This document shows, in pieces, positions 32,712-56,666 of a stretch of DNA of 64,000 bases (its first letter is position 1; the number at the start of each line of letters is the position of its first letter). The DNA is taken from NCBI RefSeq assembly GCF_001511835.1, contig NZ_LN997848.1, positions 3,066,001-3,130,000 of the forward strand, read 5' to 3'. Source of the stretch: Magnetospirillum sp. XM-1. Lineage in GTDB: Bacteria > Pseudomonadota > Alphaproteobacteria > Rhodospirillales > Magnetospirillaceae. The position numbers and the translations under genes are program-made. Below the pieces are notes generated by a model, which had not been told where the DNA came from, ran no database searches, and was given only the letters and a program-made list of their open reading frames with translations.

Positions 32712-32762
32712 GGCCCTACCTTTTACCAAGATGCGCTGATCGAAATCGATCCGCGCATCTTC

Positions 32763-32832
32763 GCCCTCAATCGCCGGGCGCCGCCGGTGGCGGCTTGGCT
32801 CCCGCCGCATAAGCGGCGCGACCCCTTGGGCC
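32763..32832 (-). repeat. Structured repeat element, copy on minus strand
   Basis: Read on the minus strand it runs GGCCCAAGGGG ... TTAT-capped stem ... AGCCAAGC ... GCGCCCGGCGATTGAGGGC. Predicted helices: outer GCCC/GGGC, second GGG/CCC, a TTAT hairpin with stem CGCCGC/GCGGCG, and a GCCGCC-ACC-GGCGGC hairpin. It is nearly identical to the copy at 56596-56666 except in the TTAT stem, where paired bases change together. A second, unrelated hairpin (32836-32870) precedes it by three bases. It lies in the leader of the 40-residue lipoprotein gene. Confidence 0.7.
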
Positions 32833-32953
32833 TATTCAAACCGCAATGAGTCTGGCTCATCGCGGTTTGAGATTAGCATGTCGCAACACCCCGCTTGAAC
32901 CGGCATCCGCGCTTGGCTATGGTTCGGGCCGATTTCCAGCAGGGAGCCTGTCC

Positions 32954-33217
32954 ATGAGCGACGACCAGAACACCAGCCAGATCGGCGGCATCGCGGCCGA
33001 GGCGCTGCGGCAGTTCATCGACCGCATCGAGCGGCTGGAAGAGGAAAAGAAGGCGCTGGCCGCCGACATCAAGGATGTCTACGCCCAGTGCAAGAGCCAG
33101 GGCTTCGACACCAAGATCATCCGCAAGATCGTGGCGCTCCGGAAGCGCGACCGCCAGGAGCGGGAAGAGGAGCAGCAGATCCTCGACCTCTACCTCGCCG
33201 CCATCGGCGAGGCCTGA
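32954..33217 (+). CDS. gapR: GapR nucleoid-associated protein (DUF2312)
   Basis: 87 residues from ATG 32954 with AGGGAG about eight bases upstream; an in-frame upstream start would begin inside the 32836-32870 hairpin. The helical core [20 protein letters not shown], then [20 protein letters not shown] and [12 protein letters not shown], is diagnostic of DUF2312. The Caulobacter GapR protein binds overtwisted DNA ahead of polymerases and assists gyrase and topoisomerase IV (known). Single gene. Confidence 0.92.
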
Positions 33218-38088: not shown

Positions 38089-39204
<1,116 letters not shown>

Positions 39205-39256
39205 ACAGTACCCGACGAAGGCTGGCTCCGCGAAGCGGGGACAGAGTGAGGAGGCA

Positions 39257-39319
39257 AGCCCAAGGGGCGCCGCGGCTTATGCCGCGAAAGCCAAGCGAAG
39301 CGCCCGGCGCCTGAGGGCT
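39257..39319 (+). repeat. Structured repeat element, copy upstream of ribH
   Basis: AGCCCAAGGGG ... ends CGCCCGGCGCCTGAGGGCT. Predicted helices: outer AGCCC (39257-39261)/GGGCT (39315-39319), GGGC (39265-39268)/GCCC (39302-39305), TTAT-capped stem CGCGGC (39271-39276)/GCCGCG (39281-39286), and a minimal GC-GAA-GC hairpin where the other copies have six-base-pair stems. A small hairpin (CTCCGC-GAA-GCGGGG, about 39226-39240) lies upstream. The ribH start codon is 20 bases downstream. Confidence 0.7.
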
Positions 39320-39338: not shown

Positions 39339-39785
39339 ATGGCGAAGGTTCTCATCATCGAGGCCCGCTTCTACGATCATATCGCCGACGGCCTGCTGGC
39401 CGGGGCGCGCGCCGAGTTCGACAAGGCCGGAATCGAGCACGACCTGCTGGTGGTGCCGGGCATCTTCGAGTTGCCTGCCGCGCTGAAGCTGGTGCTGACC
39501 GCCGCCGAGCAGGGCAACGAAGGCGCCCGCTACGACGGTTTCGTCACCCTGGGCTGCGCCATCCGGGGCGAGTCCGACCATTACCACCACGTGGGCACCG
39601 AGTGCATGCGCGGTATCGCCGATCTGTCCATGGCCTACGACCTGGCCCTGGGCAACGGCGTGCTGACCGTCCACAACGAGGCCCAGGCCCTGGCGCGGTC
39701 CGATCCGGCGCGCAAGAACCTGGGCGGCCAGGCGGCCCGGGCCTGCCTGCGCATGATGGCGGTCAAGAAGGAGCTGGGCCTTTGA
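39339..39785 (+). CDS. ribH: 6,7-dimethyl-8-ribityllumazine synthase
   Basis: 148 residues. Motifs: [54 protein letters not shown], and a C-terminal [13 protein letters not shown]. It condenses 5-amino-6-ribitylamino-uracil with dihydroxybutanone phosphate to lumazine. RBS AAGGAGAG is seven to eight bases upstream, right after the structured repeat element. It shares four bases with the nusB start. Confidence 0.95.
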
Positions 39786-55347: not shown

Positions 55348-56502
55348 CTAGCGTGGCAGCCAGACCGAGGCCATGGCCTGGGCGGCGATTCCCTCCTTGC
55401 GGCCGGTGAAGCCCAGGCCTTCGGTGGTGGTGGCCTTGACGCTGACCCGGTCCTGGGAGATGCCCAGAATTTCCGCCACTTTCGCTACCATGGCGGCCCG
55501 ATGCGGCCCCACCTTGGGGCGCTCGCAGATGATGGTGATGTCCACGTTGACGATGCGCCCGCCCTTGGCGGTGACCAGCGAGCCGGCATGGGCCAGGAAC
55601 TGGTCCGAGGCGGCGCCCTTCCACTTGGGATCGGTGGGCGGGAAGTGGTGGCCGATGTCGCCGGCGGCGATGGCGCCCAGCACCGCGTCGGTGAGCGCGT
55701 GCAGCGCCACGTCGGCGTCGGAATGGCCTTCCAGGCCGGCTTCGTGGGGCACCTCGATGCCGCACAGCCAGACGGACTTCTTGGCCGGGTCGAAACGGTG
55801 GACGTCGTAGCCCGAGGCCGAGCGCACCTCGCCGGCGCCGTCGAACAGGCGCCGCGCCCGCTCCAGGTCGGCGGCCGAGGTGATCTTGACGTTGTCCTCC
55901 GAACCCGCCACCAGTTCCACCGCCAGCCCAGCCATTTCCGCCACGGCGGCGTCGTCGGTGAGCTCATTGCCGATGACCGCGTGATGGGCGGCAAGGATCT
56001 CGGCATAGCGGAAGCCCTGGGGGGTCTGGGCGCGGAACAGGGCCGAGCGGTCGACGGTGTCGGCGACGAAGCCGTCCAGGCCCTTCTTCAGGGTATCGAC
56101 CACCGGCATCACCGGCAGGGCGCCGGGATGGCGGTCCAGCGCCCGGATCACCCGGCCGATGGTACCGTGATCGACGAAGGGGCGCGCGCCGTCATGGATC
56201 AGCACCTTGGCCGGGTTGAGGTCCTTCAGGCTGTCCAGGCCGAGGCGCACGCTGTCCTGGCGGGTCTCGCCGCCATGCACGGGTTCCAGCAGGTTGAGGC
56301 CGGCGGCGGCCATGTCGTAGAGCTGGCGGTCGTCGGGATGGATGACGGCACGCACCGCGCCGATTTCGGGATTGGTGGCGAAGGCCGCCAGGGTGTGGCG
56401 CAGCACCATGCGCCCGGCCAGGTCGTGGTATTGCTTGGGCAGGTCGCCGCCGAACCGCCGCCCGCGCCCCGCCGCCACCACCAGCACAACCGTCTTGGCC
56501 AT
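55348..56502 (-). CDS. ispDF: Bifunctional MEP cytidylyltransferase / MEcPP synthase IspDF
   Basis: 384 residues, the fused form typical of alphaproteobacteria. IspD part (about 1-225): [59 protein letters not shown]. IspF part (about 226-384): [58 protein letters not shown], and [20 protein letters not shown]. It catalyses steps three and five of the non-mevalonate isoprenoid pathway. Confidence 0.95.
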
Positions 56503-56569
56503 CGTCGCTCTCCTGGGAAATAGGGGCGACAGACTATGCGAGAGGATGCCTCCTTGCCAAGGCTTGATA

Positions 56570-56592
56570 CCGGCGCACGCATTGTGCGCCGG
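56570..56592. other. Perfect hairpin preceding the repeat element
   Basis: CCGGCGCAC-GCATT-GTGCGCCGG, nine pairs without mismatch, three bases (CTA) before the start of the element at 56596. The copy at 32763-32832 is also preceded by an unrelated hairpin with a three-base spacer (ATA). Confidence 0.6.
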
Positions 56593-56595
56593 CTA

Positions 56596-56666
56596 GGCCC
56601 AAGGGGCCGCGCGCCTTATGGCGCGGGAGCCAAGCCGCCACCGGCGGCGCCCGGCGATTGAGGGCT
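56596..56666 (+). repeat. Structured repeat element, copy upstream of the cytochrome c assembly-type gene
   Basis: GGCCCAAGGGG ... AGCCAAGC ... GCGCCCGGCGATTGAGGGCT. Helices: GGCCC (56596-56600)/GGGCT (56662-56666), GGGC (56604-56607)/GCCC (56649-56652), TTAT-capped CGCGCC (56610-56615)/GGCGCG (56620-56625), GCCGCC-ACC-GGCGGC (56634-56648). It lies in the gap between divergent ispDF and the gene at 56732. Confidence 0.7.

Follow-up and report, generated by a model that had tools for sequence, protein, structure and literature searches.

Transposons with TNA as their target are known from the IS5 family, IS1031 group. Like the TNA-duplicating MITEs of this kind, the element described here is short and non-coding and possesses terminal inverted repeats and a 3-bp TNA duplication; unlike in those MITEs, each of its terminal repeats lies within a hairpin, its structured core has long been conserved and no parent was found in the loci searched. 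REP and BIME sequences of the GTAG and CGTC super-families resemble it as described in the cited passages of their source, being intergenic hairpin repeats present in many copies, in tandem groups and near gene ends, and the termini of GTAG REPs often supply the TAG stop codon of flanking ORFs (PMC3733652). By the same passages, the element differs from them in its length of approximately 146 bp, its several hairpins, the lack of a constant tag and a duplication that restores TAA or TGA stops (PMC3733652). Br-REP1 of Bradyrhizobium, which consists of three palindromes in the 3'-UTRs of a convergent gene pair, is likewise a palindromic repeat at gene ends in an alphaproteobacterium, but its quoted consensus is dissimilar by eye and the cited passages mention no target duplication (PMC5082802). 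A likeness to the twister-sister ribozyme (RF02681) is limited to one copy with a sub-threshold match, whereas the other 31 loci scanned whole gave none and the covariation of the element supports other helices. No title or abstract describing the element was found in the literature searched, subscription papers and preprints lying outside its scope.

The window analysed here is a stretch of 64,000 nucleotides from Magnetospirillum sp. XM-1 (contig NZ_LN997848.1, positions 3,066,001 to 3,130,000), for which the initial annotation reported a structured repeat in three copies. Re-reading of the window located the three copies at the places and on the strands given there, sharing the three quoted sequence blocks and carrying the quoted variants of a TTAT-capped stem and of a fourth hairpin. 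The extent assigned to the repeat proved too short, as a variable hairpin (H1) precedes it and a further one (H5) often follows. Copy 1 (56568..56665, plus strand) begins with the left end TACCG and continues with H1 (56570-56592), TAG and a core of hA-H2-AGCCAAG-H3-H4, in which hairpin hA (GGCCC-AAG-GGGCC) occupies 56596..56608, hairpin H2 with its TTAT loop 56610..56625 and the AGCCAAG linker 56628..56634, all on the plus strand. The GCC of this linker would form the 5' side of a pseudoknot, its predicted partner being the GGC of the downstream CCCGGCG. The TGA at the left end (56565..56567, plus strand) is a TNA target triplet; the gene to the left (55348-56502) lies on the minus strand, and this TGA is not its stop codon. 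A right terminal repeat was looked for in copy 1 and none was seen, and in the sister genome G009 the same site is occupied by a copy with different hairpin sequences.

Copy 2, with its upstream hairpin, extends on the plus strand from the TGA stop codon of ribBA (39202-39204), which directly precedes it, to TGAGGGC (39205..39318, the left limit being assumed). It has a short H3 (GC-GAA-GC), no right terminal repeat was seen when one was looked for, and its site is likewise occupied in G009. Pfam analysis places this copy in a ribBA-ribH operon, where it fills the gap between the two genes; ribH (lumazine synthase, PF00885) lies downstream at 39339..39785 on the plus strand, as had been annotated. 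The supposed lipoprotein gene beside another copy is a reading frame of 40 amino acids that gave no match in a Pfam search. Copy 3 is the complete copy of the window (32724..32872, minus strand, 149 bp), with the left end TCTCAAACC.. and the right end ..CTTGGTA. It is preceded by TAA (32873..32875, minus strand) and followed by AAA, its duplication not being intact; in the sisters G011 and G005 the site is unoccupied, with a short sequence in its place. On the other side of this copy, and pointing away from it, a small GapR-like DNA-binding protein (PF10073) is encoded at 32954-33217 (plus strand). A position upstream of genes, as first described, applies to these three copies but not to the family, which goes with gene ends, and the two of the three that lie in divergent gaps are atypical of it.

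The block GCCCAAGGGG with one mismatch allowed occurs 14 times in the window against 13.4 expected, showing no excess over chance. When combined as GCCCAAGGGG-N10-26-AGCCAAGC, it gave 16 exact matches in the genome of XM-1 itself and none for the reversed control; by eye, fifteen of these resemble copies of the element and one (L016) resembles coding sequence. A covariance model built from 13 copies identified 63 places of at least 45 bits in this genome, the next score being 32 and the three copies of an array being counted as three. The initial annotation had called for such a search of relatives, and further copies are indeed present there: 28 of 40 genomes (own included) matched at E <= 0.01, all 17 genomes of the same genus among them, with 1 to 123 matches per matching genome (up to 124 candidates scored in each). 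Across Alphaproteobacteria the distribution is patchy, 20 of 289 class genomes matching (XM-1 counted among them; E <= 1e-4, up to 17 candidates scored per genome). Hosts among the 80 matches listed include Magnetospirillum, Paramagnetospirillum, Azospirillum, Nitrospirillum and Niveispirillum as well as Roseomonas, Roseococcus, Erythrobacter, Qipengyuania and Sphingomonas. The pattern was found in at least 119 stretches of the named genomes and in 42 stretches of viral contigs. One contig filed as viral, IMGVR_UViG_2708742415_000004, holds 21 pattern matches, mostly in head-to-tail arrays (L283, L310, L312); an integron-like cassette array was considered for it and rejected, as the arrays are one unit repeated head-to-tail with no predicted gene between copies. 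Head-to-tail arrays also occur in the XM-1 genome and in G011, G014 and G026.

Placed side by side, the 63 copies of XM-1 show the order H1, TAG or CAAG, hA, H2, AGCCAAG, H3 and GCCCGGCGNNTGAGGGC, with H5 in part of the copies. H1 is a hairpin whose stem sequence varies in many copies; H2 has approximately six pairs and a TTAT loop, and H3 is of variable sequence. The short hairpin hA (GGCCC-AAG-GGGCC) is a local hairpin with compensatory changes of its own, occurring also as GCGC-AAG-GCGC, GGCC-AAA-GGCC and GGCCAC-AAG-GTGGCC. Loops and junctions are constant across families while the stems vary. Folded singly, the three window copies had a slight advantage over shuffles (z -1.0 to -1.9), and the case for structure consequently rests on comparison. 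In an alignment of 30 rows hand-picked for diversity, covariation of the hairpin set scored 0.267, whereas shuffles that ignore kinship gave 0.079 +/- 0.012, and 87.4% of the set's cells were paired against 36-49% with partners slid. Further pair types were less decisive (22 vs 19.1, equalled in 27 of 500 shuffles), and the 13 pairs changed on both sides were equalled by one slid version, which also gives 13. The view that the repeat is structured with compensatory changes is thereby borne out, as is the expectation of covariation once many copies were aligned, but for a different set of helices. The outer stem GCCC..GGGC of the first description was dropped, having a covariation of 0.060 against 0.050 in shuffles among the 30 diverse copies, and 73.3% paired cells against 72.4% in shuffles in the same alignment as the local hairpins.

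The core also contains a CCC..GGG closing stem, and its linker would take part in a longer-range interaction. All three pairs between the GCC of AGCCAAG and the GGC of CCCGGCG are kept in 346 of 377 distinct copies, against a maximum of 309 in 2000 shuffles (kinship ignored). Of 30 copies with GCC on the 3' side, 29 have GGC on the 5' side, and in 14 copies GGC/GGC breaks the pairing. Together, this pairing and the CCC/GGG stem would probably form a pseudoknot. The stems are nearly pure Watson-Crick: of the 7360 pairs counted in 331 distinct copies (copies too close to a contig end left out), 96 are G·T and 60 A·C, an excess of G·T over A·C with p = 0.005. For comparison, 15 tRNAs taken from the window and from named and viral loci have 180 pairs, of which 14 are G·T and none A·C; G·T accordingly amounts to 1.3% of the element's stem pairs, a figure lowered by a hairpin finder that counts G·T as a mismatch and favours Watson-Crick stems, against 7.8% in the tRNAs, and A·C to 0.8% against 0. 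Such stems point to hairpins acting at the level of DNA, or to palindrome correction, more than to a selected transcript, and an early proposal of selection on one strand as RNA, based on tolerance of G·U, was dropped when G·T and A·C were counted. A second small insert of two hairpins (GCCGGCTTCGCCGGCAAA..GCACGCCTTCGCGTGC-like) was observed inside hairpin tips at L041, L045 and L095 and in the G008 loci L149, L157, L159 and L161 (H2 or H3 loop), and seems to be a nested repeat choosing hairpin loops. A similar insert, CTCCCTCC..GGGATATATCCCGAT, is present in the hA loop of L079 and L088, and at the site of L088 G011 carries the insert too.

Complete copies have TACCA at the left terminus and TGGTA at the right, with a median length of 146 bp and a range of 104-218 bp. 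Loci were fetched and duplicates removed by flanking sequence, which left 49 copies with both ends at no more than one mismatch each, from genera that include Magnetospirillum, Nitrospirillum, Azospirillum, Niveispirillum, Roseicella and Telmatospirillum. Equal TNA triplets flank 41 of these 49 on both sides, where 13.2 were expected (p = 1.6e-16), the duplicated triplets being TGA (13), TTA (12), TAA (11) and TCA (5); an alignment of 39 to 41 sites brought out no conspicuous motif extending beyond the triplet. The remaining eight two-ended copies have unequal triplets, which counts against classification as a MITE, and so does the lack of a recognisable right terminal repeat in many of the 63 copies of XM-1. 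For some copies the apparent end is TGAGGG(A)C; these may have decayed or moved by another route. In G005, the terminal repeat also occurs on its own, as a near-perfect palindrome lacking the core (L147/L150, C27:108711-108751).

Flanks of 16 sites of the XM-1 genome were joined and searched for in four sister genomes, and the 40 stretches around the matches were read. A sister interval was obtained for 13 of the 16 sites, L022, L085 and L086 giving none; in each of these 13 cases, which include the complete window copy at 32724-32872, the core is missing from one or more sisters, its presence being scored by script. The core pattern appeared in one of the 40 stretches (L434, for site L094 in G005), while three sister intervals hold other insertions (L433, L448 and L422); readings of single sister intervals were made by eye. 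L368, L422 and L448, sister alleles without a core, possibly contain hairpin repeats of another kind, whose GTCAT-type ends look like those of the CGTC REP super-family by eye. When only the surroundings of copies in G009 and G011 were compared, 14 sites of XM-1, one of them an array, are occupied in one or other of these sisters and three are not. At shared sites H1, H2 or H3 is at times wholly different between sisters and is still paired, and whole hairpins differ even where the flanks are approximately 90% identical (e.g., L036/L339 and L043/L048). Such replacement of whole hairpins at orthologous sites goes beyond simple transposition and counts against the MITE reading. Unoccupied sister sites, terminal repeats, target duplications and the many copies nevertheless identify the element as mobile DNA, and they strongly support the view that the three structures of the window are copies of it, as the initial annotation had suggested with its mobile palindromic repeat.

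TNA comprises TAA and TGA, the ochre and opal stops, together with TTA and TCA, their complements on the opposite strand, so that an element duplicating the 3 bp of a stop codon on insertion returns that stop, and the encoded protein does not change. Of the 41 copies with equal triplets, 26 have as their duplicated triplet exactly a stop codon, as predicted by a gene finder built for this analysis and trained on the window alone, 16 times that of a gene reading into the left end and ten times that of a convergent gene at the right end. With elements left out, stops make up 117 of the 5707 TNA triplets of the same loci, or 117 of the 1424 that are intergenic. At element-free gene ends, from the stop to 57 nt beyond, the stop accounts for 39% of TNA in the same loci and for 45% in all named loci; among copies no more than 57 nt beyond a gene end, 26 of 32 are at the stop (p = 1.2e-6 and 4.2e-5, respectively), and within 30 nt 26 of 31, against 52% and 57% (p = 0.0004 and 0.003). 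Taking all 41 copies as the denominator gave p = 0.0019 to 0.018 with the 57-nt baseline and no significant excess with the 30-nt baseline of 52-57% (p = 0.16 to 0.43). This excess of approximately 1.5- to 2-fold suggests a modest overrepresentation of the element at stop codons relative to the expectation from nearby TNA. Two sites that are unoccupied in sisters, read by eye, concern the codon itself: at L078 the gene ends in XM-1 with TAA followed by the element and in G011 and G010 with TGA, G005 and G009 having no stop there, and at L046 the codon is TAA followed by the element in XM-1, TAG in G011 and TGA in G010.

The distribution of copies among intergenic gaps was compared for 129 copies of the named genomes, with 13 copies at contig edges and one overlapping a gene left out of the arrangement test. 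Tandem gaps hold 34 copies in sense and 33 in antisense, convergent gaps 38 and divergent gaps 10, while, among element-free gaps of at least 100 bp from the named loci, 130 are tandem, 30 convergent and 88 divergent. Copies are thus underrepresented in divergent gaps (10 of 115 against 88 of 248, p = 2.4e-8) and convergent gaps preferred (p = 4.9e-6). In the viral contigs, where one contig is dominant, 19 copies were sense, 28 antisense, five convergent and two divergent, with six at an edge and six overlapping a gene; in the loci of the class the numbers were four, five, six, one, four and zero, respectively.

Possible sources of a transposase were sought among known families. The domain PF01797 is present in 16 of the 40 genomes searched, without tracking the copy number of the element, and gave no match in the XM-1 genome or in G005, G008, G009, G011, G012 and G021, several of which are copy-rich. 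An insertion sequence with PF13340 is present in XM-1 as four identical copies (L451-L454) with the ends GAGGCCGTCCG.. and ..CGGACGGACTC and with TNA at both ends, equal in three of the four. This type was rejected as the mover, its ends (GAGGCCGTCC..) differing from TACCA.. PF13340 was searched for in six genomes and PF01609 and PF13586 in four each; none of the three matched in G083 or G050, two genomes that contain the element. No TACCA/TGGTA pair was present in any of ten loci matching one of these three families, and L458 among them has a lone right-type end. As few genomes and families were searched for an autonomous parent, the element is termed MITE-like here.

The element family very probably represents small, non-autonomous, MITE-like DNA transposons of approximately 146 bp that contain no coding sequence and insert into TNA. 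Terminal inverted repeats, a target-site duplication and unoccupied sites in relatives, three features expected of a MITE, were found; better conservation of the core than expected of a passive MITE interior counts against this classification. A complete copy consists of H1, holding the left terminal repeat, the conserved core, and H5, holding the right one. Comparison shows insertion at unoccupied sites, into a TNA triplet that becomes duplicated; for most complete copies the triplet is, by prediction, exactly an ochre or opal stop, in either orientation. A transposase acting in trans would move the element and is probably of the DDE type making 3-bp TNA duplications, while hairpins and junctions may be conserved as cis requirements for movement, through single-strand folding or protein binding. 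The stems would stay perfect by selection, by template-switch correction or by both. The excess at stop codons would come mainly from tolerance of such insertions, perhaps with a contribution of target choice, and tandem arrays and copies without a right end would be later duplications and decayed forms. A stronger version, which we regard as doubtful, is that these transposons actively target stop codons: the transposase would pick TNA at gene ends by context or by coupling to termination, the duplication would restore the stop, and the folded pseudoknot core would aid movement, providing a harmless niche across Alphaproteobacteria.

Other explanations account for parts of these observations. 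It is unlikely that the element is a cis-regulatory or 3'-UTR RNA (riboswitch-like, a stabiliser or an attenuator) kept at each site for its effect on the neighbouring transcript, an option that had been raised from the window alone. The pseudoknot-like covariation, the excess of G·T over A·C mismatches and the 14 sites also occupied in G009 or G011, ribBA-ribH included, would agree with such an RNA, as would the sense copies that prevail among tandem pairs when XM-1 is taken alone (29 vs 13, p = 0.02, one of the 29 overlapping a gene end by approximately three bases). Across the named genomes, however, sense and antisense copies are balanced, G·U pairs are rare compared with those of tRNAs even if the finder's leaning towards Watson-Crick stems is kept in mind, and divergent gaps are avoided, so that this RNA is left unsupported as an explanation of the family. 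In addition, the genes adjoining the three window copies are unrelated to one another, and the core is absent from a sister at every site with an interval. A regulatory role may still apply to single old copies such as that of ribBA-ribH, the site of which is occupied in a sister too. That the element would be a self-cleaving ribozyme related to twister-sister is highly improbable. The sub-threshold match (L137:1492-1578, beside a tRNA gene) reached 29.4 bits, with E = 0.017 for 42,740 bases, against a gathering score of 34; RF02681 gave no match in the 11 other loci of the same scan, nor, at E <= 10, in a further 20 loci or in copy 1, nor at the gathering score in the window, and the GGC that it requires covaries with AGCCAAG instead. 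More generally, Rfam gave one tRNA and nothing on the element for the window at the gathering threshold, and permissive scans of copy 1 and 32 loci gave no consistent family on it, in agreement with the first reading, in which no named RNA had been recognised.

A REP/BIME repeat mobilised by a RAYT-like transposase acting on single strands (HUH, Y1), which would cut at a TGAGGG-like sequence corresponding to the element's own 3' end, would explain the rows of hairpins, the tandem arrays and the few G·U pairs. It would also fit three unoccupied sites (L045, L030 and L098) that carry TGA(A/G)GGC, resembling the TGAGGGC end of the element. We consider it improbable nonetheless, because PF01797 is absent from XM-1 and other copy-rich genomes and because 41 of the 49 copies with terminal repeats have 3-bp duplications, which HUH elements are not known to make. 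The tags at the hairpin foot also differ: hA is preceded by TAG after a variable base, by CAAG or by others, so that neither GTAG/GGAG nor CGTC, the GTAG and CGTC tags being those of the REP super-families in the cited passages of PMC3733652, is constant. A further proposal, tentative but compatible with a MITE-like transposon, is that the compensatory changes result from template switching that perfects palindromes, or from gene conversion, and not from selection for folding. Nearly pure Watson-Crick stems and the whole hairpins that differ between sisters at shared sites (as in L036/L339 and L043/L048) are in its favour, whereas loops and junctions that are constant across families while stems change are not. 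The pseudoknot, moreover, joins two separate places and yet covaries, which correction within a hairpin would not produce and common descent can.

Taken as MITE-like transposons, these copies delimit a repeat family in relatives of Magnetospirillum, Azospirillum, Roseomonas and Erythrobacter, in which a conserved pseudoknot-like core within a supposed passenger element presents a puzzle. The counts suggest that the element has entered stop codons repeatedly, across genera and without change to the protein. This would offer a simple rule by which small elements fill gene ends, and with it the choice between target preference and selection becomes testable.
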